A stretch of DNA of 51,944 nucleotides from Actinomycetes bacterium (GTDB lineage: Bacteria > Actinomycetota > Acidimicrobiia > Acidimicrobiales > RAAP-2): contig JAJZAC010000006.1 of assembly GCA_021799615.1 (NCBI GenBank), positions 1 through 51,944 on the forward strand, given 5' to 3'. The notes beneath the pieces are model-generated. The model made no database searches and was not told the DNA's origin. It was given only the letters and a program-made list of their open reading frames with translations. Shown one piece after another: positions 13,874 to 51,600 of the stretch. Position numbers and translations under genes: made by a program. How positions within the stretch are numbered: position 1 is the stretch's first letter; each line of letters begins with the position of its first letter.

Positions 13874-13882
13874 TTATTTCCG

Positions 13883-30878: not shown

Positions 30879-32375
30879 TTACGAGGCGCCGCGGCCCTGC
30901 AGCACGGTGGCCGGCGTCTTCCACAGGATCCGGGTGTCCCACCAGAACGACCACGAGGCGACGTACAGGTAGTCGAGCCGGCACAGCTCCAGGTACGAGA
31001 GCTCGTTGCGGCCCGACACCTGCCACAGGCCGGTCATGCCCGGTCGGGCCTCGAACCGCTTGCGTGCCCACCCCTCGATGGCCTGGGCCTCGGCCACCAC
31101 GAACGGGCGGGGACCGACGAGGGACATGTCGCCCTTCCATACGTTGAACAGCTGGGGCAGCTCGTCGAGGCTGGTCCGCCGCAGGAAGCGACCGACGGCC
31201 GTCACCCGGGGGTCGTCCCGCACCTTGAAGAGGGGACCGTCGACCTCGTTGCGGTCCAGGATCTCGCAACGGGCCTGCTCGGCTCCGTCCACCATGGTGC
31301 GGAACTTCAACATCCGGAACGGCACGCCGAACCGGCCCGAGCGCTCCTGGCGGAAGAACACCGGGCCGGGGCTGGTGGCCGCGACGAGGACGGCGGTCGC
31401 TGCGAAGAAGGGCGACAGCACGAGCAGGGCCAGCGACGACGCCACCAGGTCGAAGGCGCGCTTGGCGAAGCGGGCGCCGGGGCTGAACGACGCGGGGGCC
31501 ACGTCGATGAGGGGCAGGCCCGATACGTCCTCGACACTGGAGCGGATGGTCACCAGCTCGTAGTAGCGGGGAACGATCGACACCGCCACCTGCCCGGCCA
31601 GGCTCTTCAGCATGGCGATGGTCCGCTCCGGGTGCGTCCGGGAGAAGCACACGACCACCCGCCCCACCCCGAGCGCCCGGCACAGGTCGGGCAGGTCGTC
31701 CAGCCCGCCCAGGACCCCGTCGCCATCGAGCGGGTTGTCGTCCACGTAGCCGAGGAACCGGACGTTGGCATGGGCCCGCATGTGACCGGCGACCGTGCGG
31801 GCCATGACCCCGGTGCCCACCACCACGATGGGCACCGCCGCCCGACGCAGCCGCCCGGACATGGCCACGACACCGGTGCGCGACACCGGGACCAGGACAA
31901 GGGCGATCCCGCACAGGGCGACCGTCTTGCCCACGGTCAGCTCGACGTCGCCGAAGACGCGCTCGATGCCGTAGCCGATGGCGGCGGTGGCGAACCCGCC
32001 CACGATCAGCGCGTGGGCGATGTCCTTCAGGTCGCCGACGACCGCCGTGTCGATGCGGCGGGACGCCGACCGGTACAGCCCGTAGACGGCGAAGGTCGCC
32101 AGGAAGACGGGCACCATGGCCAGGTCGAAGACGAACACGCCGCCCAGACGGTTGGCCCTGCTGGCCGGGTTCGAGGACACGGCGGCCACCACGAGCGGCG
32201 CGACCAGTGCCGCCACCACCAGGGCGGTGGCGTCGGCGGCCACCAGCCGGCGCACGGCCCGCCGGCGCATGGTCACGACCGGCGCGTCCCCACCCCGGTC
32301 GGTGGCCAACGCCGGCCACTCCTCCAGCGGCGTGAGGTCCACTGCCCGCCCGAAGCGGGGGTCGATAACGGTCAT
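30879..32375 (-). CDS. Exopolysaccharide polyprenyl glycosylphosphotransferase (WcaJ/WbaP-type sugar transferase)
   Basis: N-terminal TM bundle and CoA-binding-like domain; C-terminal KRAFDLVASSLALLVLSPFF, KFRTMV, RRTSLDELPQLFNVWKGDMSLVGPRP, RPGMTGLWQVSGRNELSY. Confidence 0.95.
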   Translation of the reverse strand: MTVIDPRFGRAVDLTPLEEWPALATDRGGDAPVVTMRRRAVRRLVAADATALVVAALVAPLVVAAVSSNPASRANRLGGVFVFDLAMVPVFLATFAVYGLYRSASRRIDTAVVGDLKDIAHALIVGGFATAAIGYGIERVFGDVELTVGKTVALCGIALVLVPVSRTGVVAMSGRLRRAAVPIVVVGTGVMARTVAGHMRAHANVRFLGYVDDNPLDGDGVLGGLDDLPDLCRALGVGRVVVCFSRTHPERTIAMLKSLAGQVAVSIVPRYYELVTIRSSVEDVSGLPLIDVAPASFSPGARFAKRAFDLVASSLALLVLSPFFAATAVLVAATSPGPVFFRQERSGRFGVPFRMLKFRTMVDGAEQARCEILDRNEVDGPLFKVRDDPRVTAVGRFLRRTSLDELPQLFNVWKGDMSLVGPRPFVVAEAQAIEGWARKRFEARPGMTGLWQVSGRNELSYLELCRLDYLYVASWSFWWDTRILWKTPATVLQGRGAS

Positions 32376-32506: not shown

Positions 32507-34999
32507 CTATGGGCCGTTGGTTGTTTTTTTCGCTTCCACCACGACAGGTGCTGACCTGCGCGCGTTGAGTGCGCGTACGCGCCCTCGCAGCGCCGGTGGC
32601 GCACCGGCGCCACCCCGGGCGCCCAACGGTCGGACACGAACGGTGCGCCGCCCGCCGGGGGGCAGGTGGAACCACGAGTCGGACGGGACGTACCCGGGGA
32701 CCTCGATCGCCACCCACCGGGCGGCCCGGATGGTCGACACCTCGATCTCCCCGGCGCCTCCCCCGGCCGGCGCGGCGGCGGCCAGGCCCACGTCGGGCTC
32801 CGGGACCCAGCCGGGTTCGTCCAGGGCCACCACGTCCTCGAACACCGTCCGGCCCTGCGGCCCGGTCAACCGGACGGCCATCGTCGGGTACGGCACGGGT
32901 CCGAACCGGTGGGCACCGGTCAGGTCGGCGAACCGTCCGAGCAGCGTCACCGGCTCGACGGTGACCGAGCCGCCGGCCCGGAGCGAGACGGGTACCGCCA
33001 TCGCCTCGAGCGGCTCCGGCGCCTCGCCGTAGAGCTCGAGGTGCAACAAGCCCTCGACCCCCTCCGGGCGGTCGCACACCACGTGGAGCCGGAGCCCGTT
33101 CACGCCCTCGTCCGTCACCACCACGCTGACCGGCGCCCAGACCCGCGCCAGCGCGTAGTACGGCGCCTTCGGTAGGCCGGTGGCGTCGATCACCCCCCAG
33201 CCCGCACCCGGGCGCAGGTCACGCAGGCACACCAGCAGGGTGCCGGCGCACGGCGATCCCGGACGGCGCCACTCGGCCGCCGCCCCGGCCATCAGCTCGG
33301 CGACGGTGGCCCGGGCCAGGTCGAGGGCACGGCCGGCGTCGGCGAAGCGGGCCGCCCTCGGCTCGACCCCGAACCGGCGGGCGACGTACTCGTCGCGTAC
33401 GTCCTCCAGGTCCCAGGCCCGCCCGGTGTCGTGGTGGACGGCGGCCTTCCAGGCCGGATCGTGACCGGCCGCCGCCGGACCGCCGAACCACCGGTCGACG
33501 GTGGGGGGCTCGGGGGGCACGGCGAAGGCCAGACCCTCCGACACGAACCGGGGGGCTGCCCGGCGGGCGTCGTCCGGCGGGCGGCGGTACGTCCCGATGC
33601 CGAAGTAATGGCACACACCCTCGTCCGACCGGAACGGCGGGTCGCCCCCCGTCGGGCTCGACGGCAGGTAGGGCACGCCGGGGAGGAGGCCGGCGACGGT
33701 ACCGGGCAACGTCGAGCTCACCAGCGGGATCCGCCGCCGGCCGGCCTCCAGCCCGAACATGGCCGCCTGCTCCTCCAGCTCCTGCCCGCCGCACACCACG
33801 GCCAGGCACGGGTGCCCGCCACGGGGGCCGAACTGCTCGGTGACCTCGGCCACCACCTCGGCCGCGAAGTCGTCACCGTCCGGGGGGTCGAGGTAGCCGA
33901 GCATGCAGTCGTGCCACACGGCGATGCCCAGCTCGTCGCACAGGTCGACGACGGTGTCGCTGGCGTACACGGTGCCACCGGGCACCCGTACCAGGTTGCA
34001 GCCGGCGTCACGGGCCAACTCGAGGGTGGCCCGGACCTCGCCGGGGTCGTCGACCAAGCCGACCGGGTCCACGGGAAACCACGCCGCGCCCCGGGCGAAG
34101 ATCGGCGTGCCGTTCCATACCAGGGTGAACCCGCCGCCGGACCGGTCGGCTTCGACGGTGCGGAACCCCACCCGCCCGAGGAGGTGCTCCTCGCCGCCCC
34201 ATCCCAGCACCACCTCGGTGCGCGGCTGGCCACCGTGGGTGTGGGGCCACCACCGATCCACCTCGTCCAGCACCAGCGTGGCCCTGCGGCGGCCGCCGGG
34301 CGCGGCGACCAGCCCGGCCCGCACGCCGGCGGCCTCGACCCACGCCCTCCCGTCCCCGCCGTCGGCGTCGACGTCGGCCAGCTCCACGTGGACCCGGCCG
34401 CCGCCGCCGACGCACTCGGTCCGCAGGCCGACGAGGCGCGGGCACGGGGAGGTGACGAGGGTGACCGGGCGCCACGGACCCACCGGTGCCGGCGTCACCG
34501 TCCACCCCGGCTGGCGCCCCAGCAGCGTGGTGCGGAACCAGCGGAGGTTCTGGTGGGTGGCCAGGCCCGTCCTCCAGCGGGGGCGGGGACGCCGCACGGC
34601 GAGGAGGGGCGCGAGGGCCCGGAAGCAGATGGCCACGTCGGTCCGGCCCTCGGCCAGGGTCACCCGGGCACGGGTGGCACGGAACATGTTCACCGAGCGC
34701 GCCACCTCGACCCCGTCGACGAAGACCTCGGCCACCGACGCCAGGCCGGCGAGCTCGAGGGTGGCGGACCCCGTTCCCGCCGGGTGCTCGACGGTGCACC
34801 GGTACCACCAGTCGGCACCGTCGAGCTCCGCCGTCGTGGGCAGCGCACGCCCGGCCGCGTCCCAGGCCCCGGCCACCGTGCCGGGAACGGTGGCCGGGGT
34901 CCACCGGAGCGGCAGCCCGTCCAGGTCGTCGGGCACGGCCGCCTCCCCCGGCACCGTGCCGGCGCACTCCCACGCCGCACCGGCGAGCAGGTCAGGCAC
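32507..34999 (-). CDS. Glycoside hydrolase family 2 / beta-mannosidase-like protein
   Basis: Jelly-roll-like N-terminus (WWYRCTVEHPAG...LELAGLASVAEVFVDGVEVARS), catalytic region LGIAVWHDCMLGYLDPPDGDDFAAEVVAEVTEQFGPRGGHPCLAVVCGGQELEEQ, RFVSEGLAF. Confidence 0.8.
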   Translation of the reverse strand: MPDLLAGAAWECAGTVPGEAAVPDDLDGLPLRWTPATVPGTVAGAWDAAGRALPTTAELDGADWWYRCTVEHPAGTGSATLELAGLASVAEVFVDGVEVARSVNMFRATRARVTLAEGRTDVAICFRALAPLLAVRRPRPRWRTGLATHQNLRWFRTTLLGRQPGWTVTPAPVGPWRPVTLVTSPCPRLVGLRTECVGGGGRVHVELADVDADGGDGRAWVEAAGVRAGLVAAPGGRRRATLVLDEVDRWWPHTHGGQPRTEVVLGWGGEEHLLGRVGFRTVEADRSGGGFTLVWNGTPIFARGAAWFPVDPVGLVDDPGEVRATLELARDAGCNLVRVPGGTVYASDTVVDLCDELGIAVWHDCMLGYLDPPDGDDFAAEVVAEVTEQFGPRGGHPCLAVVCGGQELEEQAAMFGLEAGRRRIPLVSSTLPGTVAGLLPGVPYLPSSPTGGDPPFRSDEGVCHYFGIGTYRRPPDDARRAAPRFVSEGLAFAVPPEPPTVDRWFGGPAAAGHDPAWKAAVHHDTGRAWDLEDVRDEYVARRFGVEPRAARFADAGRALDLARATVAELMAGAAAEWRRPGSPCAGTLLVCLRDLRPGAGWGVIDATGLPKAPYYALARVWAPVSVVVTDEGVNGLRLHVVCDRPEGVEGLLHLELYGEAPEPLEAMAVPVSLRAGGSVTVEPVTLLGRFADLTGAHRFGPVPYPTMAVRLTGPQGRTVFEDVVALDEPGWVPEPDVGLAAAAPAGGGAGEIEVSTIRAARWVAIEVPGYVPSDSWFHLPPGGRRTVRVRPLGARGGAGAPPALRGRVRALNARRSAPVVVEAKKTTNGP

Positions 35000-35963
35000 C
35001 GAGCCGCGCCTCCACGATCTCGACGCCCCGGTTCCAGCCGGCCGTCATCTGGGCCAGGGGGCCGTCGAGGTCGCCGCTCCGGCCCCGGGCCCGCCGGGCC
35101 AGTACGAACTGGAGCGTCTTCGCCGCCTCGGCCGCACCGGCGAGCGCCGCTGACGCCGGCGCCAGGTCACCCACGTGGGGATCGAGCCACGTCGCCAGGG
35201 ATGCCGCCAGCTCGGCGCCGGCTCCGAACTGCCGGCAGGTCCCGAAGGCGTAGGCGTGGAACGCCTCGGGCCCCGAGGCGGCCAACCAGGGGAGGTCGTC
35301 ACGGATGCGCCGTCCCAGCTCGCCCACGGGGTCGCCGGGCACGCGGCGGTCCAGGTGGTCGCGCGCGGTGGCGACGACCCGGTCGACCAGGTCTGCGGGG
35401 GTGCGGGCACCGCCGATCTTCACCACCTCGACGTACGGCGGGAGGGCCGGTGGCGCCGAGCCGACCACGGCGGCGGCGTCCGCGCCGTCCACCTCGAAGT
35501 AGCCCCCGTTGTGGAAGTAGCCGACGGCCGGCCCGTCGCGGTCGAAGGCGTTGGCCACGATCGTCGTCTTGGTGTGCTCGATCCGGTAGGAGACGCCCGC
35601 CGTGTCCGGAAGGAACCAGGCGTCCGCCTCCACGGTGAGGAGGTGGCCGAGCCCGAGGTGCTCGTCGACGTGCTCGGCCAGGGGCCGCCACACGTTGAGC
35701 TCGGCGACCTCGATGCCGTAGAGGGAACGCAGGTCCTCGACCGGGTACTTGGAGAAGGTCCACTGGTCACCCTCGAACCCGGCGCTCAGGGTGAAGGCGG
35801 TACCGGCCACCGGGTCGAGCCCGAGCGAGGCGAGCACCTCGATCCATACGTCGATGGCGCAGTTCGTCTCGGTCCAGATCCGGTCGGGGGCGTGCAGGGG
35901 GTGGGGCCGGTACCCGGCAGCGTCGAGCTCGAGGAGCCGGCGAGGCCAGGGCCCCCGCCTCAC
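34992..35963 (-). CDS. DUF1839 family protein
   Basis: NCAIDVWIEVLASLGLDPVAGTAFTLSAGFEGDQWTFSKYPVEDLRSLYGIEVAELNVWRPL...EADAWFLPDTAGVSYRIEHTKTTIVANAFDRDGPAVGYFHNGGYFEVDG; GTGA overlap with the ligase. Confidence 0.88.
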   Translation of the reverse strand: MRRGPWPRRLLELDAAGYRPHPLHAPDRIWTETNCAIDVWIEVLASLGLDPVAGTAFTLSAGFEGDQWTFSKYPVEDLRSLYGIEVAELNVWRPLAEHVDEHLGLGHLLTVEADAWFLPDTAGVSYRIEHTKTTIVANAFDRDGPAVGYFHNGGYFEVDGADAAAVVGSAPPALPPYVEVVKIGGARTPADLVDRVVATARDHLDRRVPGDPVGELGRRIRDDLPWLAASGPEAFHAYAFGTCRQFGAGAELAASLATWLDPHVGDLAPASAALAGAAEAAKTLQFVLARRARGRSGDLDGPLAQMTAGWNRGVEIVEARLGA

Positions 35964-36868
35964 GGCCACAAGGCGGCCCGGACCGGTGCCGGCCACCGGT
36001 CGGTCCGGATGCCGTGCCGGGCGAACAGGGCGAGGGTGATGCGGTCGACGCCGAACCCGAAGCAGGCGGTGTGGGCCACCTCGCCGTCGGCCGTCGTGAT
36101 GCCGAAGGGCAGGGCGAAATGGTCGAGGTGGCAGTTGGCCGAGCACAGGGCGACCGGTGGGCCGTCGTCGACGTGCGCCACCAGTTCCAGCTTCAGCACC
36201 TGGTCCCGCTGGCTGGCGGCCAGGATCCGGCCGGCCCGGCCGAAGAACGGGTCGTTGGCCACCTCGGTCTCGACCTCGAGCCCGAGGCCGGCGAGGACGT
36301 CCGCCCCCCGCTGCGCCCACCGGTCCCGGTGGCGGCGGGCCCCCTCCGGCCCGTCGAGGGCGACGTAGTCGTGCTGACGGAAGCTCTGCATGCGGAACGG
36401 GTCGGTGCTGGGTTCGTGGCGGAAGCACCATCCGGACACCTCGACCAGGCGGCCCCCCTCGGGGAGGGTGCCGGCGCACGTCGGGTAGAGCGGGTGGCAG
36501 ACGGCCGGGCACAGGACGACGTCGGTCGGCGGCAGGTGGTCGGCCCACGGCGCTCCCGACTCGACGGCGGCCAGCAGGTCGGCATGGGCGGCCTCGTCGC
36601 CGCCGAACGAGTGGACGGATCCCATCAGGTCGGGGAAGGACTCGAGGTACCCGCTCTTCTCGAAGACGGTCCGCGGCATCACGGGCGGGAACCGGACTGA
36701 CGCCACCGGCAGCCCGGCCCCGGCCCGCAGGATCACGTCCTCGAGCCCGGCGACGACCGCTTCGTAGGAGGCGGACCGGCCGTCGACGCCCGCCGCCGAG
36801 GTGGGCACGAGCAGCCCGGCCTCGACGAGTGCCGCCCGCAGGCGGGCCCGGCCGTCGCCGGCCGTCAC
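35960..36868 (-). CDS. Amino acid:[carrier protein] ligase (class II SerRS-like, lacks tRNA-binding domain)
   Basis: VRFPPVMPRTVFEKSGYLESFPDLMGSVHSF, class II motif 2 CFRHEPSTDPFRMQSFRQHDYV, CSANCHLDHF, motif 3 CFGFGVDRITLALF; only 302 aa. Confidence 0.92.
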   Translation of the reverse strand: MTAGDGRARLRAALVEAGLLVPTSAAGVDGRSASYEAVVAGLEDVILRAGAGLPVASVRFPPVMPRTVFEKSGYLESFPDLMGSVHSFGGDEAAHADLLAAVESGAPWADHLPPTDVVLCPAVCHPLYPTCAGTLPEGGRLVEVSGWCFRHEPSTDPFRMQSFRQHDYVALDGPEGARRHRDRWAQRGADVLAGLGLEVETEVANDPFFGRAGRILAASQRDQVLKLELVAHVDDGPPVALCSANCHLDHFALPFGITTADGEVAHTACFGFGVDRITLALFARHGIRTDRWPAPVRAALWP

Positions 36869-38037
36869 TCCACCCCCCGGTGGACCAGGAGCAGCTGGGC
36901 GTTGTTGCCCAGGATCCGGTCGTTGTTGACCATGAGCGCGGCCCCGTAGGCGTCGCGGAGGTGGCGACCGAGCCCGTAGGGACCGCCGTCGCGGTACCCG
37001 GCCATGCCGCACACCTGCACGGCCCGGTGCACGACATCGACGACGAGCGTCGAGGCGGAGACCTTGAGCGAGTTCATGGCCAGGGCGAAGCCGACCGACG
37101 ACAGGACACCGGGGTCGTCCCGGGCGTCGTCGAACCGGCGGGCCCCGCCCCGCACGGCGTCGGCCAGCTGCCCGTGGACGGCCAGCAGTTCGGCAACCCG
37201 GCGGGCGGCTTCGGGCGGCGTGCCCGGGGACTTGCGCGCCGCGGCCTGGACGAACGCCCGTGCCCGCTGGGCGGCGGCCGAGGCGATGCCCCACCACACG
37301 GCACCCCACAGCACATGGGCCACCGGCAGCATGGTCCGGGCCGAGATCTCGCCGTAGGGCTCGGGCAGCACGAGGTCGTCGTCGCCCGAGGCGCGCAGCA
37401 CGAACCCCGGGCTGCACGTACCCCGGAATCCCAGGGTGTCCCACTCGCTCACCTGCTCGAGCTCCAGGTCCGGGGGACGGCACACCACCAGCACCTGGTC
37501 GTTGGGCGGGCTGGCCGCATCGCGCCGGGCGGTGACCAGCACGGCGTCGGCCTGGGCGCCGTACGAGATGACGGGCGCCTCCTTCACCAGGTGGAAGCGC
37601 CCGCCCCCACGTTCCAGGGCGCACCGGCTGGAGCGCACATCGCCCCCGATGCCCACCTCGGTGGTGGCGGAGGCCAGCAGCAGTGGGCGGTCGACCAGGC
37701 CGGCGGTGAGCTCCCGCAGGGCGGGGGTGTTCCCGTGGCGAGCCAGGCACGCCACCTGGATGTGGTGCATGGCCAGCACCATGGCGCTCGACGCGCACTG
37801 CCGGCCGAGCGCGGCGACCGACTCGGCCACCTCCGACAACGGCCGGTCGGGCCCGCCCAGGGCGGCCGGGACCAGCGCGGCCAGGACACCCTCTGCCGCC
37901 AGGGCGGCGAGGGCCTCGGTCGGGAACCGAGCCCGGCGGTCGACGTCCGCGGCGTGGGCGGCGGCCACCGCGTCGGCCACGTTCGTCACCGTCGCCACCA
38001 GCTCGGCGGTCGGCGCCGGGCCCGAGCCGTCACCCAC
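36865..38037 (-). CDS. Acyl-CoA dehydrogenase-fold flavoprotein
   Basis: FPTEALAALAAEGVLAALVPAALGGP, ASATTEVGIGGDVRSS, VQVCGMAGYRDGGPYGLGRHLRDAYGAALMVNNDRI; GTGA overlap with the ligase. Confidence 0.9.
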   Translation of the reverse strand: MGDGSGPAPTAELVATVTNVADAVAAAHAADVDRRARFPTEALAALAAEGVLAALVPAALGGPDRPLSEVAESVAALGRQCASSAMVLAMHHIQVACLARHGNTPALRELTAGLVDRPLLLASATTEVGIGGDVRSSRCALERGGGRFHLVKEAPVISYGAQADAVLVTARRDAASPPNDQVLVVCRPPDLELEQVSEWDTLGFRGTCSPGFVLRASGDDDLVLPEPYGEISARTMLPVAHVLWGAVWWGIASAAAQRARAFVQAAARKSPGTPPEAARRVAELLAVHGQLADAVRGGARRFDDARDDPGVLSSVGFALAMNSLKVSASTLVVDVVHRAVQVCGMAGYRDGGPYGLGRHLRDAYGAALMVNNDRILGNNAQLLLVHRGVE

Positions 38038-38278
38038 CGAGCAGTTCCTCGAGGGCGGCGCGGATGGCTGCCACCGACTCGAAGGTGTCCTTGCGCAACA
38101 GGTGTTCGGGGAACTCCACGTCGAACTCGTCCTCGATGCCGAGCATCACGTTGACGCTGGCGTGGGACGTCATGCCCGCCGCATACAGGTCGGCGGTGTC
38201 GTCCAACTCCTCCACGCCACGGGGAAGGCGCGCATGCGCGCCGAGCACCATCCGGATCCGATCCTCGACGTCAGCCAT
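38030..38278 (-). CDS. Acyl/aminoacyl carrier protein
   Basis: DLYAAGMTSHASVNVMLGIEDEFDVEFPEHLLRKDTFESVAAIRAALEELL; Ser in the GMTSHAS motif is the candidate phosphopantetheine site. Confidence 0.92.
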   Translation of the reverse strand: MADVEDRIRMVLGAHARLPRGVEELDDTADLYAAGMTSHASVNVMLGIEDEFDVEFPEHLLRKDTFESVAAIRAALEELLGG

Positions 38279-38777
38279 CTCCTCCACCTCGATCGACCTG
38301 TGGTCCGCTCCCGGACCCGAGCTCATCGTGCCAGCTCCGAGCTTCGCACAACGCCAGCACGACCGCAGCGGCGACACCGCCGTGATGGGTGAGGCTCACC
38401 GCCCACGAGATGACACCGACATCGGTGGCCCGGGAGGCGGCCCCGCCCGAGAGCGCGAGCTCGCACGCCCCCGACGGCCGCCGGCGCACCTCGATCTCCG
38501 TCCACGACGGGGCCCACCCGTCGGGGGCGAGCACCTTGACGACGGCCTCTTTGGCCGCGAAGCGGGCAGCCAGGCTCTCGGCCGCGTCCGGACCGGCCAC
38601 CGGCCACCGGCTGTCCGACCGCTCGGCCGCCGTGAACAGGCGCCGGGCGTAGCGGTCGCCGAAGGCGGCCAGCGAGGCGGCCACCTCCTCCACGGCGACG
38701 ACGTCGATCCCGGCCCGGTAGCGCAGCCCGGCGGGAGGCGCCGGGGCCCGCATGGCCGCAGCCATGGCCTCCGCCAT
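38271..38777 (-). CDS. AcpS-type 4'-phosphopantetheinyl transferase
   Basis: AGIDVVAVEEVAASLAAFGDRYARRLFTAAE, ESLAARFAAKEAVVKVL; overlaps the carrier-protein gene by 8 nt. The track start at 38861 would overlap the GT4 gene. Confidence 0.88.
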   Translation of the reverse strand: MAEAMAAAMRAPAPPAGLRYRAGIDVVAVEEVAASLAAFGDRYARRLFTAAERSDSRWPVAGPDAAESLAARFAAKEAVVKVLAPDGWAPSWTEIEVRRRPSGACELALSGGAASRATDVGVISWAVSLTHHGGVAAAVVLALCEARSWHDELGSGSGPQVDRGGGDG

Positions 38778-38841
38778 CGCCGCCGGTTCGACCCGGCGCG
38801 ACCTGCGGCCGCCGCCCGCCCCCGGTACCGGCCGGCCGTGG

Positions 38842-39996
38842 TCAGGCGCGGGCCAGGGCATCCCGGTAACACTCCCGGTACCGTCCGGCGATCACCTGCC
38901 AGGCGAAGTCCTCGACCCGCGCCCGCCCGGCGGCGGCCAGCCGGGCCCGACGGGCGGGGTCGGCGAGGAGCCCGGCCAGGAGCTCGGCGAACCGCGACGG
39001 GTCGGTCGGGTCGACGAGGACACCGTCCACCCCGTCGGTGACGAACTCCGGCGGGCCGCCCCGTCCGGTGGCCAGCACCGCGACCCCCGCCCGCCACGCC
39101 TCGAGGACCACGATGCCGAACGGTTCCAGACGGCTCGGCATGACGAACAGCTCGGCGCCGGCCATGGCCGCGGCCACGTCGTCGCGGTCGAGCCGCCCGG
39201 GGAAGTGCACCCGGTCGGCGATCCCGAGGCTGGTGGCCAGGGCACCCAGGCGCTCCCGCTCGGCACCGTCGCCGGCGACCACCAGGTCCGCCGTGCGGGC
39301 GGCGGGCGAGACGGCGGCGTACGCCGCCAGCAGCAGGTCGAACCCCTTCTTCTCCACCACCCGGCCCACGGCCAGGACATAGGGGGCGGCCGGGGCCCGG
39401 CGCCACCGCCCGGCCGGCGGTGCGGCCAGGTCGACACCGTTGAAGACGACGCGGCCCCGACCCGCCGCCAGCCCGAAACGGTCCTCGGCGTCGGCCAGCG
39501 TGAACGCCGAACAGGCCGTGACGACGGCCGCGTGCCGGAGGGCGGACCGCAGCGAGGCACGCAGGACGGTGGAGCGCTCGAAGATGTCGGCGTCGTCCAT
39601 CACCGTCTCGCCCTGCAGCGTGACCACCACCGGCAGGCGCCGCCAGGCGCCGAGGGCGGCGGCATAGGCGCCGTTGGGCCCGAAGCACTGGACGTGGAGC
39701 ACCTGGGGGCGGAACTCGTCGACAGCCCGCCCCAGGGCGCGCAGGGCGCGCAGGGCACCGGGACCGGACCGGGTCAGCGGTCCGGGCCGGGCCGCCGGCA
39801 GCGGCAGGGGGAAGCGCCGCACGGTGATCCCGTCGAGCACCTGACGGCTGGGCGGGTCCCGGTCGTCGGAGGTGCCCGTCCACACCTCCACCTCGTCACC
39901 GGCCTCGCGCAGGGTACGGGCCAGGTGGCGGGTGAGCTCCTCGACCCCGCCGAGGGCGGGGAGGTACGAGCTGGGCACGAGGGCGATCCTCGTCAC
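38842..39996 (-). CDS. Glycosyltransferase family 4
   Basis: VPSSYLPALGGVEELTRHLARTLREAGDEVEVWTG; VLAVGRVVEKKGFDLLLAAY; SRLEPFGIVVLEAWRAGVAVLATGRGGPPEFV. Confidence 0.93.
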   Translation of the reverse strand: MTRIALVPSSYLPALGGVEELTRHLARTLREAGDEVEVWTGTSDDRDPPSRQVLDGITVRRFPLPLPAARPGPLTRSGPGALRALRALGRAVDEFRPQVLHVQCFGPNGAYAAALGAWRRLPVVVTLQGETVMDDADIFERSTVLRASLRSALRHAAVVTACSAFTLADAEDRFGLAAGRGRVVFNGVDLAAPPAGRWRRAPAAPYVLAVGRVVEKKGFDLLLAAYAAVSPAARTADLVVAGDGAERERLGALATSLGIADRVHFPGRLDRDDVAAAMAGAELFVMPSRLEPFGIVVLEAWRAGVAVLATGRGGPPEFVTDGVDGVLVDPTDPSRFAELLAGLLADPARRARLAAAGRARVEDFAWQVIAGRYRECYRDALARA

Positions 39997-41267: not shown

Positions 41268-42326
41268 ATGCCCCCTGCCGACTCCCCTCCCCGCCTCGTG
41301 CTCGCCTCGCTGGCGACCAGCGTCGCCATGGGGCAGCAGGCCTACGAGCGCAATCTGGCCGCGGCCCTCGGCCGGGTCGCCGGTGACGCCTGGCAGGTCC
41401 GGGAGTGCCCGGTCCATTCCCTTCGCTCCCGTGCCACCACAGGACGACGGCTCCCGCTGCGGGCGGTGGCCGGGCTGCCCGCACCCGCCGCCCGGTGGGC
41501 TGCCCGGCTCACCTACGGGCCTGCGGCGGTGGTGCACCGGCTCGACCTCCGCTTGCCACCGGCTGGTGCGCCCGAGGTCCTCACCGTGCACGACCTGGCC
41601 CCGCTGCACTTCGCCGACGAGGGCGCGCTCCCCCCGGGCTGGCGCCAGTCCGTGCGGCGCGCCGCCGTCGTGGTCGCCCCCTCGGTCTTCGCGGCAGCGG
41701 AGATCGAAGCGGCGACCGGGGTGCGGCCCGTCGTCGTCCACCATGGCGCCGACCGGGACCTGGCGGAGGCCGAACCGCTCGGCCGCGTCGAACTGGCCGC
41801 GCTCGGTATCCGGCATCCCTACGTCCTCCACGCCGGCGGATCGACGGCCCGGAAGAACCTGGCTGGCCTGGCCGAGGCGTGGAGGGCTGTCCACCGGTCC
41901 CGGCCCGACTGCATGCTCGTCCTGTGCGGGCCGGCCGACGCCCGCCGGGACGCGCTGTTCGCCGGTGTCGGCGGCACGGTGCGCCCGGGCCATCTGCCCC
42001 GGTCCACCCTGGCCGGCCTCCGCCGCGGCGCGGCCCTGGTCGTCGTACCGTCCACCTACGAGGGGTTCGGGCTGCCGGCGCTCGAGGCCATGACGGCCGG
42101 GGTACCGGTCGTGGCTGCCGCCCGTGGCGCCCTCCCGGAGATCGTCGGCGACGCCGGACTGCTGGTCGAGCCGACGGGACCGGCGTTGGCCGACGGGATC
42201 CTGGCCGCCCTGAGCGATCCGGCGGTGGGTGCGCGGGCGGCCCGCAACCGCGATCGGGCCCGGAGCCGGACGTGGGACGACGTCGCCACCGACCATCTGG
42301 CGCTGTACCGCCGCGCCCTGGCGTGA
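41268..42326 (+). CDS. Glycosyltransferase family 4
   Basis: YVLHAGGSTARKNLAGLAEAW; VPSTYEGFGLPALEAMTAGVPVVAAARGALPEIVGDAGLLVEP. Confidence 0.92.
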   Translation: MPPADSPPRLVLASLATSVAMGQQAYERNLAAALGRVAGDAWQVRECPVHSLRSRATTGRRLPLRAVAGLPAPAARWAARLTYGPAAVVHRLDLRLPPAGAPEVLTVHDLAPLHFADEGALPPGWRQSVRRAAVVVAPSVFAAAEIEAATGVRPVVVHHGADRDLAEAEPLGRVELAALGIRHPYVLHAGGSTARKNLAGLAEAWRAVHRSRPDCMLVLCGPADARRDALFAGVGGTVRPGHLPRSTLAGLRRGAALVVVPSTYEGFGLPALEAMTAGVPVVAAARGALPEIVGDAGLLVEPTGPALADGILAALSDPAVGARAARNRDRARSRTWDDVATDHLALYRRALA

Positions 42327-42368: not shown

Positions 42369-43652
42369 ATGACGGCGGCCGGGAAGCCGAACGGTGGCGA
42401 CCAGCCGCAGATCCTGGAGCCCCCGCCGAGAGCCCCGATGCAACCGTCCCCCGCCGTCACCGTCACAGGTCTTTCCAAGTCGTACCGGATCGCCCACCAT
42501 GCCGACGCGCCGGTCACCGCCACCGAGGCGCTCCTGGCCCGCGTGCGCCACCCGTTCACCCGCATGGAGCGCGAGACGTTCGACGCCCTCCGGGACGTGT
42601 CTTTCGAGATCCCCTGGGGTTCGGTCGTCGGCCTCATCGGTCGCAACGGCGCCGGCAAGTCCACACTGCTCAAGATCCTCACCCGCGTCACCGCCCCCAC
42701 CTCCGGCCGGATCGTCATGGGTGGCCGGGTGGGCAGCCTCCTCGAGATCGGGACCGGCTTCCATCCGGAGCTCACCGGCAGAGAGAACGTCTACCTGAAC
42801 GGCACCCTCCTCGGCATGCGACGGTCCGAGATCCGCTCGCGTTTCGACGACATCGTGACCTTCGCCGGCGTCGAGCGGTTCCTCGACACCCAGGTGAAGC
42901 GGTACAGCACCGGGATGTACGTGCGCCTCGCCTTCGCCGTGGCCGCCCATCTCGAGTCCGAGGTCATGGCCGTCGACGAGGTGCTGGCCGTGGGCGACGC
43001 CGACTTCCAGGCCAAGTGCCTGGAGAAGTTGCGCGAGGTCGCCCGGGGCGGGCGGACGGTCCTCCTGGTCAGCCACCAGGCGCAGACCATCGTCGACCTG
43101 TGCGACTCGGCCCTCTACCTCGAGCGGGGCAGCCTCCGCTACCAGGGGGCGGTCGACGGTGCCCTGGAGGAGTACCGGAACAGCTACCGCCGCATCCGCG
43201 ACGCGGGCCTCGACGCCTCGACCAGGCCCGGCAGCGGCGAGGTGCGCTTCACGTCGGTGCGGGCCGAACGCGACCTCTACGCGGCATCCGACGAGAAGGT
43301 GGTCCACCTCGAGGTGTCGGCCAATCCCGAACTGGCCGGCCGGTACTGGCTGGTGGCCCACGTACTCGACGACCTGGGCACCATCGTGGCCCAGTGCGAT
43401 TCGCGGGTGCTCGGGTTCTGGCTGGAACCCGACCGGCCGGCGACGTGCGAGCTCCGGTTGCGCACGCCGTGGCTGAAGCCGGGCAGCTACACCGTGGACG
43501 CCTTCGCCGTGCGGGCCAGCGACCGCATCGACGTCTGGCAGGCCGCCACGCACTTCGACGTCCTCCCCGACCCCCCGTACCCGGTGGCCACCTCCTCGGA
43601 GGCCACCGACCGCGGCGTGGTGTTCGCCGACTTCACCTACGAACGATGCTGA
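42369..43652 (+). CDS. Polysaccharide ABC transporter ATP-binding protein (Wzt/TagH-like) with C-terminal domain
   Basis: Walker A GLIGRNGAGKSTLLKIL, signature KRYSTGMYVRLAFAVAA, VMAVDEVLAVGDADFQAKC; C-terminal beta domain. The true start may be the internal ATG at 42438, since TAGCAT overlaps the 42369 ATG. Confidence 0.93.
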   Translation: MTAAGKPNGGDQPQILEPPPRAPMQPSPAVTVTGLSKSYRIAHHADAPVTATEALLARVRHPFTRMERETFDALRDVSFEIPWGSVVGLIGRNGAGKSTLLKILTRVTAPTSGRIVMGGRVGSLLEIGTGFHPELTGRENVYLNGTLLGMRRSEIRSRFDDIVTFAGVERFLDTQVKRYSTGMYVRLAFAVAAHLESEVMAVDEVLAVGDADFQAKCLEKLREVARGGRTVLLVSHQAQTIVDLCDSALYLERGSLRYQGAVDGALEEYRNSYRRIRDAGLDASTRPGSGEVRFTSVRAERDLYAASDEKVVHLEVSANPELAGRYWLVAHVLDDLGTIVAQCDSRVLGFWLEPDRPATCELRLRTPWLKPGSYTVDAFAVRASDRIDVWQAATHFDVLPDPPYPVATSSEATDRGVVFADFTYERC

Positions 43653-44521
43653 CGCCCCCCGCCGAGTCGTCCGGCACCCAGCACCCCGGACCGCCCGATG
43701 GCGCCCGCCCGGTGGTGATCGTCCCCCCGGGGCGCTGGTCCCTGCCCCGCTTCGGCCAGTTGTGGGAGAGCCGGGAGGTCTTCCTCCGCTTCGGCGCCCG
43801 GGACCTCACCCTCCGCTACCGGCAGACGGCACTCGGGATCATCTGGGTCGTCCTCCAACCGCTCCTGACCGCCGGTGTCTTCACCCTCGTCTTCGGTTCG
43901 GTGGCCAAGCTGCCCCACGGCACGGTCCCCTACTTCCTCCTCAGCTACGCCGGCATGCTGGCCTGGAACGTCTTCTCCGGCATCGTCTCGCGAGGGACGG
44001 GCTCCCTCGTGACCAACGCCAGCCTCGTGTCCAAGGTCTACTTCCCCCGCGTGCTCGTCCCCCTGTCCACCGCCTACGCCGTCGTCGTCGACTTCGCCAT
44101 CGCCCTGGTGCTCATGGCGGTGCTGCTCGCCGGCTACGGCGTGAACCCCGGGTGGGCGGTACTGGCCCTTCCCGTGTGGGTCGTGCTCCTCGTCCTGCTG
44201 GCGTCGGGCGTCACGGTGATCACCGCCGGGCTCACCGTGCGCTACCGCGACATGCAGTACATCGTCCCGTTCGTGCTCCAGCTCCTCCTCTACGCCAGTC
44301 CCATCGCCTACTCGCCGGCGGCGGTGCCGGCCCGGTACCACCTCCTCTTCGACCTCAACCCACTGGCGTGGATCCTCCAGGAGTTCCGGTGGTCGCTCAT
44401 CCGCCAACCGCTGCCCCCGGCGTGGCAGCTGGCCGCATCGGCTGCGGTCTCGGTCGGCGTGTTCGTCGGCGGCATGTTCGTCTTCGAGCGCATGGAGCGC
44501 GGCTTCGCCGACGTGATCTGA
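43646..44521 (+). CDS. Polysaccharide ABC transporter permease (Wzm/TagG-like)
   Basis: RFGARDLTLRYRQTALGIIWVVLQPLLTAGVFTLVFGSVAKLP; VRYRDMQYIVPFVLQLLLYASPIAY; 7-nt overlap with the ATPase gene. Confidence 0.93.
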   Translation: MLTPPAESSGTQHPGPPDGARPVVIVPPGRWSLPRFGQLWESREVFLRFGARDLTLRYRQTALGIIWVVLQPLLTAGVFTLVFGSVAKLPHGTVPYFLLSYAGMLAWNVFSGIVSRGTGSLVTNASLVSKVYFPRVLVPLSTAYAVVVDFAIALVLMAVLLAGYGVNPGWAVLALPVWVVLLVLLASGVTVITAGLTVRYRDMQYIVPFVLQLLLYASPIAYSPAAVPARYHLLFDLNPLAWILQEFRWSLIRQPLPPAWQLAASAAVSVGVFVGGMFVFERMERGFADVI

Positions 44522-44569: not shown

Positions 44570-46726
44570 TCAGCGCCCCGCTGCCCGCCGGTCCCGGCGC
44601 CCCAGTGCCCGCCGGTCGAGGGCGGTGCGCAGGCGGACGGACGCCTCGTAGGCCAGGCACCCCGTGCCGAGGACGCGCCAGTACGGGAACCACCAGCGGG
44701 CGACCCGGACGGGTGCACTCCACCGGGGCCCGTCGGACACCACGTCGTCCCACGCCCCCGGCAGCGCGTCGGCACGGGCGCCGAGCGCGGGGACCACGGG
44801 ATCGGGCAGGGGGTCACCGGCCACCCAGGCCGCGTACACGTCGGCCACGTTCCCGCCCGCCATCGCCGACACCGACACCGACCCCCACACCCGCGGGTTC
44901 ACGTCGTGGACCCAGTACCGGTCGTCGGCGTCGCGCAGGATGCCCGCGTTGAACAGGCCCTCGAGCCCGGTGGCCTCCACCACCCCCTGGGCGATGCGGT
45001 CGAACACCGGACCCTGCAGGTACGCCAACCGCCGGGCTGGGCCGAGCGACCGCACGGCCTCGACGATGCGGTAGCCGACGTGCCAGCACAGGCGCGATCC
45101 GTCCGACATTCCGGCGACCTGGAAGGACTCCCCCTCGACGAAGCGCTCCACGTACCACTCCTCGGGGCGTTCCAGCGCGCCCACCACGGCACGCAGCTCG
45201 TCCAGGCCGTCCACCATCACCACCGACTCACCGCCGGCACCGACCCGAGCCTTCACCACCAGGCGCGGACCGAGCTCGCCCACCACCCGCGCCAGGTCGG
45301 TGTCCGGCAACGCCACCGCTGACGGGACGTCCAGGCCGGCGGCGGTGAGGGCCCTCGACACCTCGAGCTTGTCCATCAGCTCCCGTCGCCGGAGGAAGCG
45401 CCGGCGGCAGGCGGGCGTGACCGCGGCCAGCAATGCCGGTCCCACCCCGCCGACCAGTGGCTCGGCCACGTGGAGGTCGACCACGCGCTCCCCGGCCAGG
45501 ACGCCGGCGGCGCTCTCGATCTCGTCGAGCGAACCCACCTCGACGGTGGCGTCCCAGCACCAGCGGGTGCCGATCCGGCTGGGAGGTCGGGTGGTGACAC
45601 GGACCGCCCGGACCCCTCGCCGGCGCAGGAGGACGGCGAGGTGGACGAAGGACGTCCAGGCGAACTCGTCGACGAAGACGACGGTAGGCGGCCGGGTGGG
45701 CGGCTCCGCCGCCGGCACCACCGGTGGCCGCACCGGGCCCGGATGCCCCCGCCGGGCGGCGACCGCCCGTTCGGCGACGGCCGCCGCTCCCCCGGCTGCC
45801 AGCCCGGCGGCCGCTGCCCCCGCTCTCGACAGCCGGCCGGCCACGGCCCGGACCCGTCGGCGCCCGCGTGGCGGCGGATCGGGGCGCTCCCCGGCCAGCA
45901 GCCGGGCCACCTCACCAACGCCCACCCGCAGATAGCGCCGGAGCACCGGCGACACGAGACCGAAGTTGCGGGCCAGCAGGACGACGTGGTTCCGCTGTGC
46001 GAAGTACGCGTAGCGCGTGTCGAACCGGCGGCCCCGGGCGTAGGGACCGGCCACGTGGACCACCGCCGCCGAGGGGGTGAAGACGAGGCGCCAACCGGCG
46101 GCGCGCACCCGGAGGGCGATGTCCGTCTCCTCCCGCAGGCACGTGCCGGGGAAGCCGTCACGGATCCCACCCAGCCCGACGAGCACGTCGCGCCGAAAGG
46201 ACATGTTGGCCCCCAGCAGGTGGTCGACCTCGACCGGGCCGGGCGGTCGGGCGGCGAAGAACCCGGTGAGGGTGCCGTCGCGCCGGAGCCGCCCGATACG
46301 GTCCGTCCCCTCGTCCTCCTCGCCGGGATTGCCGTTGGCGGCGCGCCCGCCGACACCGCCGACGCCGGGACCGTAGGCGGCCAGGAGCTCCGCCAGCCAG
46401 GTGGGCTCGGCATAGGCGTCGTCGTCGAGGAAGGCCACCACGTCGCCGGTGGCGTGTTCCAGGCCGAGGTTGCGGGCCGTCGCCGTCGTCCCCGGGCCCC
46501 GCCGGTTGCGCAGGTAGACCACGCCAGGGAACTCGGCGGTCACGACGGCCTCGGTGTCGTCGTCGACCGAGGAGTCGACCACGATGGTCTCCACCGGCGC
46601 CACCGTCTGGGCGGCGACGTGGGTGAGGCAGGTACGCACGTGGTCCGGGCGCCGGTAGGTGACGATCACGACGGATGCCAACACCGGCGGCGCCGGGTCC
46701 GCTGGCGCCGCCCTCACGTCCTCCAT
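44570..46726 (-). CDS. Bifunctional GT2 glycosyltransferase - ATP-grasp fusion
   Basis: GT2: ASVVIVTYRRPDHVRTCLTHV, FLDDDAYAEPTWL, CLREETDIALRVRAAGW. ATP-grasp: LMDKLEVSRALTAAGLDVPSAVAL, RLVVKARVGAGGESVVMV, WYVERFVEGESFQV, YWVHDVNPRVWGSV. ATG at 46726; the 1062-aa track ORF is over-extended. Confidence 0.88.
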   Translation of the reverse strand: MEDVRAAPADPAPPVLASVVIVTYRRPDHVRTCLTHVAAQTVAPVETIVVDSSVDDDTEAVVTAEFPGVVYLRNRRGPGTTATARNLGLEHATGDVVAFLDDDAYAEPTWLAELLAAYGPGVGGVGGRAANGNPGEEDEGTDRIGRLRRDGTLTGFFAARPPGPVEVDHLLGANMSFRRDVLVGLGGIRDGFPGTCLREETDIALRVRAAGWRLVFTPSAAVVHVAGPYARGRRFDTRYAYFAQRNHVVLLARNFGLVSPVLRRYLRVGVGEVARLLAGERPDPPPRGRRRVRAVAGRLSRAGAAAAGLAAGGAAAVAERAVAARRGHPGPVRPPVVPAAEPPTRPPTVVFVDEFAWTSFVHLAVLLRRRGVRAVRVTTRPPSRIGTRWCWDATVEVGSLDEIESAAGVLAGERVVDLHVAEPLVGGVGPALLAAVTPACRRRFLRRRELMDKLEVSRALTAAGLDVPSAVALPDTDLARVVGELGPRLVVKARVGAGGESVVMVDGLDELRAVVGALERPEEWYVERFVEGESFQVAGMSDGSRLCWHVGYRIVEAVRSLGPARRLAYLQGPVFDRIAQGVVEATGLEGLFNAGILRDADDRYWVHDVNPRVWGSVSVSAMAGGNVADVYAAWVAGDPLPDPVVPALGARADALPGAWDDVVSDGPRWSAPVRVARWWFPYWRVLGTGCLAYEASVRLRTALDRRALGRRDRRAAGR

Positions 46727-46746: not shown

Positions 46747-48498
46747 TCACGCTCCCGGCGGGGCAAACCGCTCCCGCACGTGGGCGTCGAGGAGGGCGGC
46801 GGCACGCTCGCGGCCGTCGCGGATCAGCAGGCTGTGGTCCATGTCCTCGACCACGGTCAGCGTGAAGCGCCCGGTCCGTCGCAGCCGGCGCTCGCCGAAC
46901 CACCGCCAGTAGGCGACCTCGCGCAGGGGTCGGACCTCGTCCTCGCCCGACACGACGAACGTGTCGACACCGGCCCGCACCCCGCGGGCGACCACGGCCA
47001 TCGGCGCCCACCCCACCACCACCTGCCGGACGGTGCGCCAGATCCACCACGCGGTGCGACCGTGCTTGCGGGCGAGCCGGACGAGTGGCATGGGCAGGGT
47101 CATGAACGCCTGCCGTCGGGAGTCGGCCAGCCCGGACTCCTTGTGCATCGACGTGGAGGACACGGCGGCGTTGATCGTGCAGACACCACGAGCACCCAGG
47201 GTCAGCGCCGTCTCGAGGGCGCCGTAGCCACCCGAGCACAACCCGACGAGAACGACGTCGGAGGGGTCGTCGGGGGACACCGACCGCACGGCGTCGGGCA
47301 GGTCGTCGAGCCACTGCCGGGCGTAGGTCACGTTCTCGCGCTGACCGGGATGGACGGGGCTGTCCCCCACGCCCGTCAGGTCGAACCGGAGGCAGGACAG
47401 CCCGGCCCCGGCCCATCGGCGGGCCAGCTCCACCCACTGACGGCCGGGACCGATGTGGTGCTCGGTGGCCACGTTCACGAAGACCACCCAGGGCCGCGAC
47501 CCCCCGCCCACCGGTTCGGTCACGATCCCGAACATGCCGACGGACGCGAGACGGACGACCCGCTCGTGGACCGGACGACCTCCCTCGCCGGTGGCAACCA
47601 GCACCCCGTCGGGGCCGACGGGCATGTGCCAGGGGCGCCGGTCCTCCGGTGCCCGGGACCCCAACCACGTGCCCACCGTGGCCAGCGCCTCCCACGGGAC
47701 GGCGGCGTCCAACGGAGGGACGTCCAGGAGGTCGGCCTGTCCGGCCGCCACCTCCCACGCCACCCCGGAGCCGTCCTCCAGACCCGGCGTGCGGGCGAGC
47801 AGCCGGCGGCGCGTGGCGCGGTCCTCACGGGTGAGGACCAGCGTGGCCGGCACGGTGTCACGCAGTCGAGCCAGGTCCAGCCGGCACCCCTCCAGGGCGG
47901 CGACCGTGGCCTCGTCGTACCAGTACCCCGGGGTGTCAGCCCCCGTCGGCGACGGCAGGCGACCGTCGAAGAGCCGCACGAGCAGTGCCTGCTGGTGGCG
48001 GAGGAACTCCCGCCCGTCGAGGCAGGGATCCCACAGGACGCACGCATCGGGGGGTGCCTCGGACGCGACGGCGGCGACCGACGCCAGCACCGCGCCCATC
48101 CGCATCCCCACGAGCGCCGTCCACCCGGGCGACGCCTGGCGCACCAGGTCCAACGCCGCGTGCACCCCGGCGATCCAGGCCCCGAGGCGATCCGGATCGG
48201 TGGGCAGCCCGGCCGAGTCGCCGGTGCCGTCGTAGGCGAACCGGAGGGAGACGAACCCGTGCGCCGCCAGCGACTCCGCCACCTTCCGAAAGGTCCGGTA
48301 GGTCATCCGCTCCTCGTCGCCGAGGGGCGGGCACAGCACCACCGCGCCCCGGGCCTCACCGGACGCGGGCCCGGTGAGCCAACCGAACAGCGGTCGCTCA
48401 CCGGGGCCGAACCACACCGGCTCGGCCCGCACCAACTCGCCGTCGCCGACCTTGTCCACCACCGCGGCCACCGTCTCGAGCCCCTCTCTCCACTCCAT
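46747..48498 (-). CDS. Tandem alpha/beta hydrolase protein (two hydrolase-fold domains)
   Basis: Domain 1 GAVVLCPPLGDEERMTYRTFRKVAESLAAHGFVSLRFAYDGTGDS...ALVGMRMGAVLAS; domain 2 PWVVFVNVATEHHIGPGRQWVELARRWAGAGLSCLRFDLTGVGDS...VLVGLCSGGYGALE. Confidence 0.8.
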   Translation of the reverse strand: MEWREGLETVAAVVDKVGDGELVRAEPVWFGPGERPLFGWLTGPASGEARGAVVLCPPLGDEERMTYRTFRKVAESLAAHGFVSLRFAYDGTGDSAGLPTDPDRLGAWIAGVHAALDLVRQASPGWTALVGMRMGAVLASVAAVASEAPPDACVLWDPCLDGREFLRHQQALLVRLFDGRLPSPTGADTPGYWYDEATVAALEGCRLDLARLRDTVPATLVLTREDRATRRRLLARTPGLEDGSGVAWEVAAGQADLLDVPPLDAAVPWEALATVGTWLGSRAPEDRRPWHMPVGPDGVLVATGEGGRPVHERVVRLASVGMFGIVTEPVGGGSRPWVVFVNVATEHHIGPGRQWVELARRWAGAGLSCLRFDLTGVGDSPVHPGQRENVTYARQWLDDLPDAVRSVSPDDPSDVVLVGLCSGGYGALETALTLGARGVCTINAAVSSTSMHKESGLADSRRQAFMTLPMPLVRLARKHGRTAWWIWRTVRQVVVGWAPMAVVARGVRAGVDTFVVSGEDEVRPLREVAYWRWFGERRLRRTGRFTLTVVEDMDHSLLIRDGRERAAALLDAHVRERFAPPGA

Positions 48499-48689
48499 CG
48501 TCCCCCCGGCACGCGGCCGTCGCCCACCACCATGCACCGGCGCGGGCGGCCTCGTCATCCCGGGTCTCCATTGTCCCAGGTCGGGAACGAACGCCGGCGC
48601 GGCTTTCGCAACAATCCCACTCTCCGTCTTCAGGCCACTTCGTTGCGTGCCGATAGCTGGGCAAGCACCCCGATTCGGAAAGGCACGTC

Positions 48690-51600
48690 ATGCGTTCTGC
48701 CCCGCAGACACCTGGCCGGGCGAGGGCCGCGTGCCGGGCCGCGGTCGTCTCCGTCCTCGCTGCCGCCGCCACCTGGCCGGCGCTCGCACCTCCACCGGCG
48801 GCGGCCGCCGTCGCCGGGACGTCCCCGGCCGCGCCGCTGTGCGGTGTGGCCGCCCCGTCGTCGGTGGCCGAGCCCACGGTGGCGGCTCCCTCCTCGCCGG
48901 TCCAGACCGTGGTCAGCGGCGTGCCCGTCACCAATTTCGTGGTGGTGGGAAGCGACATCGACATCTTGAGCGGTTCGTCGATCGTCGTCCGCACGCTGGC
49001 CGGCGCAGCGGTCACCAGCTTCGCGCTGCCGTTCCCGCAGGGGAACGCCAGCACGGACATGGTGGCCGACCCGTCCGGCAACCTCTACCTGTTCGGGTCC
49101 TTCTCCTACGGTTGGGGTGTCGGCAAGGTCACACCGACCGGATCCCTGGCCTGGTCGGTACCCGTCGCCGGCATCCCCAACGGCCTGTATCCCTGGCACG
49201 ACGCCTCGGGGAATTTCGCCGTCGGCGTGGTCCTGCGAGGCCAGGCGGGCGGACCGGTGCTCTCCACGACGGGCACGCAGGTCGCCACCGGTCCGGTGGC
49301 CGGCTCCGGCAACAACGACGACGTCAACCCCGGACCCAACGGCGGGCTCCTGGTGACCGACGGCACCAGCGTGACCCGCTACTCCTCGTCGGGCGCCGTG
49401 ATCGGCACCTTCGGCGCCGCCGGGGCCGCCGGCTCGCCCGACAGCCCCGGTTCCCCCTTCCACTTCTACCAGGAGGGCTTCGCCGCCCAGGTGGGGTCCA
49501 CGATCCTGGTGGCCGACGACGGGTGGCCCTCCTACGGACAGGGCATGGACCTCGTCGCCGAGAACGGCCTGGCGCCCCAGATCGTGCCCGACAGCACCCT
49601 CGGCAACGTCAGCACCAACTCGCCCGTCGCCGTGGTCGGCTCCACCGTGTACTTCGCCAACGGCAACGGGTCCCAGATCGCGTCGACGACGGTCGCCGAC
49701 CTCGAAGCGCTGGCCGCGGCACCGGCCGCGCCCCTCCAGGGAGGTTTCGGCGACACCCTGGGAATCGGTGCCGGCCTGTCCACTCCCCAGGCGGCCAACT
49801 ACTTCGCGCCGGGGACGACGCCGTCGATCACCGCCACCTTCCAGCCGTGGTGGTCGTCGTTGGCGCCGCAGCTGGACCTCAGTTACTGGGTCGCCGGGCG
49901 CAGCCAGTACACGTCGGGGGCCGTCCCCGCCCCCACCACCGCCGCCGTGTCGACGGCGGCCACTGCCACCGACGGTACCCTCACCCTGCCCCTCGCCGTT
50001 CCCCCCGCCGACCAGGGACCGGGTGTCTACCTGGTCAATGCCGATCTGGTCGACTCGACCACCGGCGCCACGGTGGGGTCCACCTGCCTCACGTACTCGG
50101 TGGGGATGGCCGGCGACACGCTCGACCTGTCCTCCCTCGCGCCCGGGATCGACTTCGGGGGCCCGGGCCCGGTGCGCGGCGTCCAGCTGGCCTCCGCGTT
50201 CGGGACCGGCCTGGACCGCACCCAACTCGACTGGGCGACCATGCTGCCGTCGTGCAACCCGTCCGCCGTCACCGCGGCCCAGTGCGGGCCGGGAGCGCTG
50301 GTGTTCACCGCCTACGATCCCGCCGTCGAACAGGCAGCTGCCGAGGCCAGGTCACTGGGTGTCGCCTACGAGGTCCAGGTGGCCGACGGGCACGCGGTGG
50401 ACAGCGCCGTGGTGAACGCCGGCGGCGGCCTTTGGGAACAGGACGTCCAGGCCATCGTGGCCCATTTCGCCACGTCCGCACCCGACCTGACCGACTTCGA
50501 GGCGTGGAACGAACCCAATGCCACGTGGACCGGCGCCACGAACTACGTCGACCAGATCCTGGCCCCCTTCTACCAGGCCGTCCAGGCGGTGAACCAGGCC
50601 ACCGGCCGCAGCGACAAGGTGGTGGGCGGCACCGTGATCGGCGCCAGCGAGTCCTACTGGCAGGCGTTCGCCGCCGCCGGCGGCTTCTCCGACGTCGACA
50701 TCGTGGCCGCCCATCCCTACACGCAGTACGACGCGTCCTTCGAGGAGGAGGGCACCATGGCCGGGCTCCAGTCCCTCCGCTCGCTCATGGCCCAGTACGG
50801 CGCGTCGGCCAAGCCCATCTGGGTCACCGAGCTCGGCTGGTGGTCCGACGGACCGGCCGCCTACTACGACGTCGGCAATTGGGTCGCCCGAGCCTGGATG
50901 TGGCTCCATTCCGTCGGCATCACCGACTGGAACTACTTCGTGACCGAGGGGGAGTTCTCGGGAACGGGCACCTCGTACTCGCTCATCCAGGGAAGCAGCC
51001 AAGACCAGTACGTGAAGCCGGCCGGGATCGCCCTGATGACCGTGTCGAACGTGCTCGGGTCCCGACCGTTCCTCGGCACGGTGCCGACCGGTGTCCCGCA
51101 TGCCACGGCCATGCTCTTCGGACCGCCGCCCGGCGGTTCGGGCGACGTGCTGGCCGCCTGGACGGACGACCTGTCGGTGCCGGCCGTCGTGTCGGTCACC
51201 GGCGGCACGGTGCCGGCGTCGCTCGCCACCACGGGCGCGCTGGGATCGAGCGGCAGCCTCGCCTTCGGTTCGGGATCCTCCGCACCCCTCGAACTGACCG
51301 GTGCTCCCGTCTACCTCCACGTGCCGTCGGGCACGACGGTGGCCATCGCTCCGGCCGAGACGTTCGGCACCGACCTCCTCCTGGCGACGGGGACGGCGGC
51401 CACCGCCTCGTCCTCGCTGTCGTCGACCAACGGCCCCGCCGACGTCCTGCGCTCCGCGGTCGTCAGCGGAGTGACGGTACCGGTGGCCGACATGGGCGGT
51501 TCGTCGACCGGGCTGTCCTCCACGCCGGTGTGGGCGTCGGCCCCCGGGGACACCACGCCCACCCTGACCGTGACCATGCCGGAACCGGCACCGGTCGACC

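Follow-up and report, generated by a model that had tools for sequence, protein, structure and literature searches.

We propose, with a probability of roughly 0.45, that a 718 amino acid protein encoded on the minus strand at 44570..46726 of the window (the whole stretch of 51,944 nucleotides that was analysed) is a two-domain enzyme of surface polysaccharide synthesis, whose C-terminal ATP-grasp half would amidate the sugar at the chain end before its N-terminal GT2 glycosyltransferase half extends the chain, whilst the neighbouring aminoacyl-carrier genes would add a separate aminoacyl decoration. In this scheme the ATP-grasp domain would use ATP to form an amide, the most likely partners being a small amine and the carboxylate of a uronic-type sugar at the growing end of a lipid-linked chain, and the GT2 domain would add the next sugar onto the amidated end. 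The finished chain would be exported via Wzt/Wzm, and the carrier ligase, acyl carrier protein (ACP), oxidoreductase, DUF1839 protein and hydrolase would, in a step of their own, decorate this polysaccharide with an amino-acid-derived acyl group. Both the substrates and the order of these steps are those that we infer.

The reading frame of the fusion extends from an ATG at 46724-46726 to a stop codon at 44570-44572, comprising 718 codons with zero internal stops; coding on the plus strand across 44570-46726 was ruled out, as a stop interrupts the plus frame. The GT2 domain, delimited by Pfam and an alignment of 16 sequences, occupies residues 1-300 (45827..46726), with the Glycos_transf_2 match (PF00535) covering residues 18-178 (E = 3.4e-23; 82.8 bits against a gathering cut-off of 23.3). 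It is followed by a linker of residues 301-346 (45689..45826), consisting of the GT2 C-terminal tail and then a Pro/Ala-rich part (about 330-346), positioned where stand-alone GT2 relatives end. The ATP-grasp region takes up residues 347-718 (44573..45688), of which residues 452-616 matched ATP-grasp_3 (PF02655; 33.1 bits, cut-off 23.2; E = 7.4e-8). The single 718-residue polypeptide with N-terminal GT2 and C-terminal ATP-grasp domains described, with no strand given, in an earlier note on this DNA was thereby confirmed, both Pfam matches being above cut-off and all four of the quoted motifs being present (FLDDDAYAEP from residue 99, REETDIALR from 198, VKARVGAGG around Lys492 and DVNPR at 608-612). 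The same fusion was found on contig C43 of the other genome of the genus compared (G001), as a protein of 711 amino acids with 74% identity.

There is experimental precedent for fusions of GT2 and ATP-grasp domains that amidate a polysaccharide and extend it. In Cj1438 (C. jejuni HS:2) and HS19.11 (HS:19), the C-terminal half amidates the chain-end glucuronic acid, after which the N-terminal GT2 extends the chain (PMC11800379, PMC13276843), and, as in these proteins, the polypeptide described here combines a GT2 domain, a linker and a C-terminal ATP-grasp within a polysaccharide locus. However, the ligase of Cj1438 and HS19.11 is TupA-like and connects to the GT2 through a middle domain some 127 residues long, whereas the present fusion has a short Pro-rich linker and an ATP-grasp_3/PRK12767-like domain with Gly at metal ligand 1. 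No TupA-type family was found among all Pfam matches of the fusion up to E = 1, and a TupA-like identity was rejected; judged by sequence, the fusion is therefore of the Cj1438 kind in architecture, not in ATP-grasp family, and function would be transferred from Cj1438 by architecture only. Because of this architecture and the genomic context, amidation followed by extension would be the most likely logic for the fusion. The earlier note had envisaged the opposite order, with the sugar added first and an amide or ester link made afterwards, which does not agree with the two characterised analogues. What appears to be new is a GT2 domain fused to an ATP-grasp of non-TupA type, and the interest of the fusion lies mainly in its aminoacyl-carrier context and its changed metal site.

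Within the GT2 domain, the Asp-rich metal/nucleotide motif (D101-D102-D103) and the acidic catalytic-base motif (R198-E199) were invariant in 16 of 16 sequences. The ATP-grasp region retains the ATP-binding lysines K453 and K492, which are invariant in six subfamily members, as well as the metal residues D608 and N610, plus R612 and E527. The full set of metal ligands, namely an acidic or amide residue together with (E/D)-x-N, is incomplete in the fusion, both species having Gly595 in place of the first ligand. This position aligns with an Asp in D-Ala-D-Ala ligase and a Glu in the Microbacterium ATP-grasps, and is D, E, Q or N in 70 of 72 relatives (gap-free sequences), the two with Gly being the G001 protein and L110 of another family. 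Of the catalytic residues whose absence the earlier note had regarded as fatal to its proposal, K453, K492, D608 and N610 are thus present and the first metal ligand is lost. The profile of the fusion's ATP-grasp family matched D-Ala-D-Ala ligase 8evy (E = 1.2e-17), such that membership of the superfamily stands by sequence, though intact catalysis does not follow from it. When the ATP-grasp region was modelled from an alignment with two distant rows, the mean pLDDT was 39, too low for the active site to be judged.

These observations bear on a rather unlikely alternative, in which the ATP-grasp half is catalytically dead and serves the GT2 or the hydrolase as a scaffold or as a regulatory or acceptor-binding domain, with amino-acyl transfer performed by DUF1839 or the hydrolase. 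The presence of Gly595 in both species would suit such a role, as would the dN/dS of the ATP-grasp part between the window and G001 (0.36, relative to about 0.15 for the GT2 part), which is the highest among 13 locus genes, and an ATP-grasp core conserved no better than the remainder of the domain. Nonetheless, a ratio of 0.36 is well below 1 and near those of the next two genes, encoding a second GT4 glycosyltransferase (0.32) and a GH2-like glycosidase (0.31), so that the ATP-grasp half is under constraint, but the least of the 13 genes, and K453, K492, D608, N610 and R612 have all been kept. A separate ATP-grasp family (L110, L141; motif GIVDMGFRYDxRDGRYKLLDVNPR) also has Gly at metal ligand 1 and otherwise looks intact, hence Gly at this position does not by itself prove that activity has been lost. 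Ligase activity of the ATP-grasp half is considered likely despite Gly595, and the fusion would represent a case of an ATP-grasp that lacks the first metal ligand whilst selection continues.

The polysaccharide locus surrounding the fusion spans 30.9 to 48.6 kb. On the minus strand it encodes an initiating sugar-phosphate transferase (Bac_transf; 30879..32375), a GH2-like glycosidase (32507..34999), a DUF1839 protein (34992..35960), an amino acid:[carrier protein] ligase (35961..36853, with a putative start), an acyl-CoA dehydrogenase-like oxidoreductase (36865..38037), an ACP (38030..38377) and a 4'-phosphopantetheinyl transferase (38271..38861), the latter two assigned by Pfam, and a first GT4 glycosyltransferase (38842..39996). 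A Pro/Thr-rich protein with PPTTVPPPTAP repeats lies at 40070-41146, its C-terminal part being 77-95% identical among relatives with the same locus. The plus strand then encodes the second GT4 glycosyltransferase (41268..42326), the exporter ATPase Wzt (42369..43652; 54% identical to a homologue in locus L030 that has a Wzt_C domain) and the ABC-2 polysaccharide exporter permease Wzm (43649..44521). Beyond the fusion, a double alpha/beta hydrolase is encoded on the minus strand at 46747..48558, 20 bp upstream of the fusion in the window and with a 4-bp overlap with the fusion start in G001. This hydrolase is a head-to-tail pair, with residues 57-189 resembling exosortase-A-associated hydrolase 2 and residues 358-445 resembling hydrolase 1 (NCBIfam, below cut-offs), proteins which are normally the products of two separate genes. 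All genes of the locus were found in the same order in G001, on contigs C17 and C43, both contig ends falling inside Wzm. The genes for the fusion and the hydrolase make up a separate pair on the minus strand, and as the plus-strand GT4-Wzt-Wzm genes lie between this pair and the carrier operon, the fusion and the carrier genes are neighbours and not one operon.

With respect to the acceptor, no uronic acid gene was identified among the annotated genes of the window, which tells against the proposed scheme. The genome (an assembly 88.5% complete) does encode nucleotide-sugar dehydrogenases, the enzymes by which uronic acids are made, whereas a search of it for DegT sugar aminotransferases gave no convincing match; a sugar carboxylate is therefore mildly favoured over an aminosugar as the target.

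The assignment of the predicted carrier ligase is secure, with 394 bits to NCBIfam PRK07080 against a cut-off of 357, and a match to structures of Bll0957-type ligases (PDB 4h2w) at E = 9e-69; ligase, carrier protein and phosphopantetheinyl transferase, the components of an amino acid:[carrier protein] ligase system, are all present in the locus. Joining of an amino acid to the amine of a cell-surface sugar by such a system was proposed in 2010 on the basis of gene neighbourhoods (PMC2922099), and DUF1839, to which a papain-like fold was assigned, was suggested to have a role in glycan processing (PMC10318531); no established physiological role for these ligases was found in the papers searched, which offered nothing further on the system. 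The window locus resembles Bll0957-type operons, and comes close to the neighbourhood in PMC2922099, in its ligase, ACP, oxidoreductase, DUF1839, glycosidase and polysaccharide genes, but adds the GT2/ATP-grasp fusion, the double hydrolase and the Wzt/Wzm exporter. The fusion is a single protein on which a surface-glycan role of the carrier ligases becomes testable.

An association between the fusion and the aminoacyl-carrier genes, as claimed earlier, was upheld by the synteny of the locus in both species and by the usual place of the hydrolase elsewhere. A hydrolase homologue was located near the carrier ligase in 16 of 21 loci (20 of the 24 family loci, and G012), and the hydrolase, which is co-directional with the fusion, is therefore a usual member of carrier operons in related genera. 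Co-occurrence of fusion and operon, which the earlier note had put forward as a check, was rejected in its strict form; the relationship is one-way, in that both genomes of the genus have the two together and the fusion was found only in this genus, but the carrier operon is far more widespread, 24 of the 61 family genomes having the ligase.

Separate ATP-grasp genes were also linked to the carrier genes. In six genomes of the family (G012, G019, G021, G025, G032 and G974), a BacD/PRK02186-like ATP-grasp with an intact E/E/N metal triad is encoded no more than about 12 kb from the carrier ligase, and 12 of the 14 family genomes with an ATP-grasp of this type also had the carrier ligase (Fisher p = 8e-5, the genomes being related and not independent). 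This type was absent from G000 and G001. These ATP-grasps, in related genera and in Microbacterium aoyamense, are comparable to the fusion in their linkage to carrier ligase, ACP and hydrolase genes, but they differ from it in being separate genes of another subfamily, with all three metal ligands. In M. aoyamense (L030), a compact locus at 7986-17313 encodes a member of the GT2 clade, a second GT2, Wzt, Wzm, an ACP, a carrier ligase and a hydrolase, along with two separate, 57%-identical ATP-grasps. The identities relative to the window are 59% for the GT2, 54% for Wzt, 49% for Wzm, 46% for the ACP and 39% for the carrier ligase, and of 19 GT2-clade genomes searched this was the only one with a carrier ligase. 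The case for a single polysaccharide pathway served by both ATP-grasp ligation and carrier-bound amino acids is best made by this independent grouping in M. aoyamense; the organism is a cultured strain, DSM 19461, fit for experiments. Together, the window locus and its relatives connect carrier ligases, in two distant actinobacterial groups, with ATP-grasps and with loci complete for polysaccharide export.

The same findings could be accommodated by the order in the earlier note, with the GT2 adding a sugar and the ATP-grasp then linking an amino acid through an amide or ester, fed by or cooperating with the aminoacyl-carrier operon. Conservation of the locus in both species, the gene content of the M. 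aoyamense locus, the frequent presence of the carrier ligase in family genomes with a BacD/PRK02186-like ATP-grasp and the 2010 prediction of an amino acid joined to a sugar amine are all in keeping with this. We nevertheless regard it as unlikely, since the operon-linked ATP-grasps elsewhere belong to a different subfamily and amidation precedes sugar addition in the characterised fused analogues. Furthermore, loading onto a carrier protein has by itself activated the amino acid, whose transfer would then need no ATP-grasp, and it is therefore more likely that the ATP-grasp performs a second, separate modification, or activates a sugar carboxylate, as in the amidate-then-extend reading that we prefer. 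A more far-reaching proposal is doubtful, in which the fused domain would be a novel kind of amide ligase, active with its altered metal site, and would join the carrier operon in decorating one exported polysaccharide with amino-acid-derived groups; if true, the carrier ligases would gain a physiological job in the decoration of surface glycans.

Stand-alone relatives of both halves were identified. Those of the GT2 half (53-59% identical) came from some 20 actinobacterial records, Micrococcales in nearly every case, plus G016 of the same family, and the neighbours of this clade in Micrococcales include other glycosyltransferases and genes of the Wzx/Wzy or Wzt/Wzm type; no ATP-grasp of the fusion type was found near any of these relatives. 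Those of the ATP-grasp half (about 25-33% identical) were found in G027, G174, G276 and G327, the G027 and G174 members carrying D or N as first metal ligand. The contexts of stand-alone subfamily members are varied (L147, L148), and the ATP-grasp fold accepts highly diverse substrates, both of which would be compatible with a substrate outside the repeat unit, such as the reducing-end or lipid anchor, a peptide or another metabolite, the fusion merely co-localising two activities. This is improbable in view of the polysaccharide locus around the fusion and the arrangement in G027, where a separate ATP-grasp of the same subfamily is situated directly downstream of another GT2, about 24 bp past its stop. 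That pair is preceded by a gene whose sequence, judged by eye, is dTDP-4-dehydrorhamnose-reductase-like.

The existence of stand-alone relatives suggests that two separate genes were fused in this genus. The architecture search proposed in the earlier note confirmed both domains and recovered the fusion from both genomes of the genus, but nowhere else: a search of genome contigs for close relatives matched the GT2 half only, and profile searches of the order, class and phylum returned no further GT2 fusion, with matches mostly to generic ATP-grasps (of biotin carboxylase or CarB size). An artefact joining two genes by frameshift, misassembly or read-through, or a chance reading frame, against which the earlier note had cautioned, is excluded for practical purposes by the 718 codons free of stops, the recurrence of both fusion and gene order in a second species and dN/dS values well below 1 in both halves.

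Two further genes flank the locus. A sortase-domain protein is encoded at 28351-29286, some 1.6 kb ahead of the gene for the initiating transferase, whilst the region adjoining the other end, 48690-51944, encodes a large protein, 82% identical in G001, that combines a weak glycosyl hydrolase core with a sugar-binding domain of the F5/8 type.
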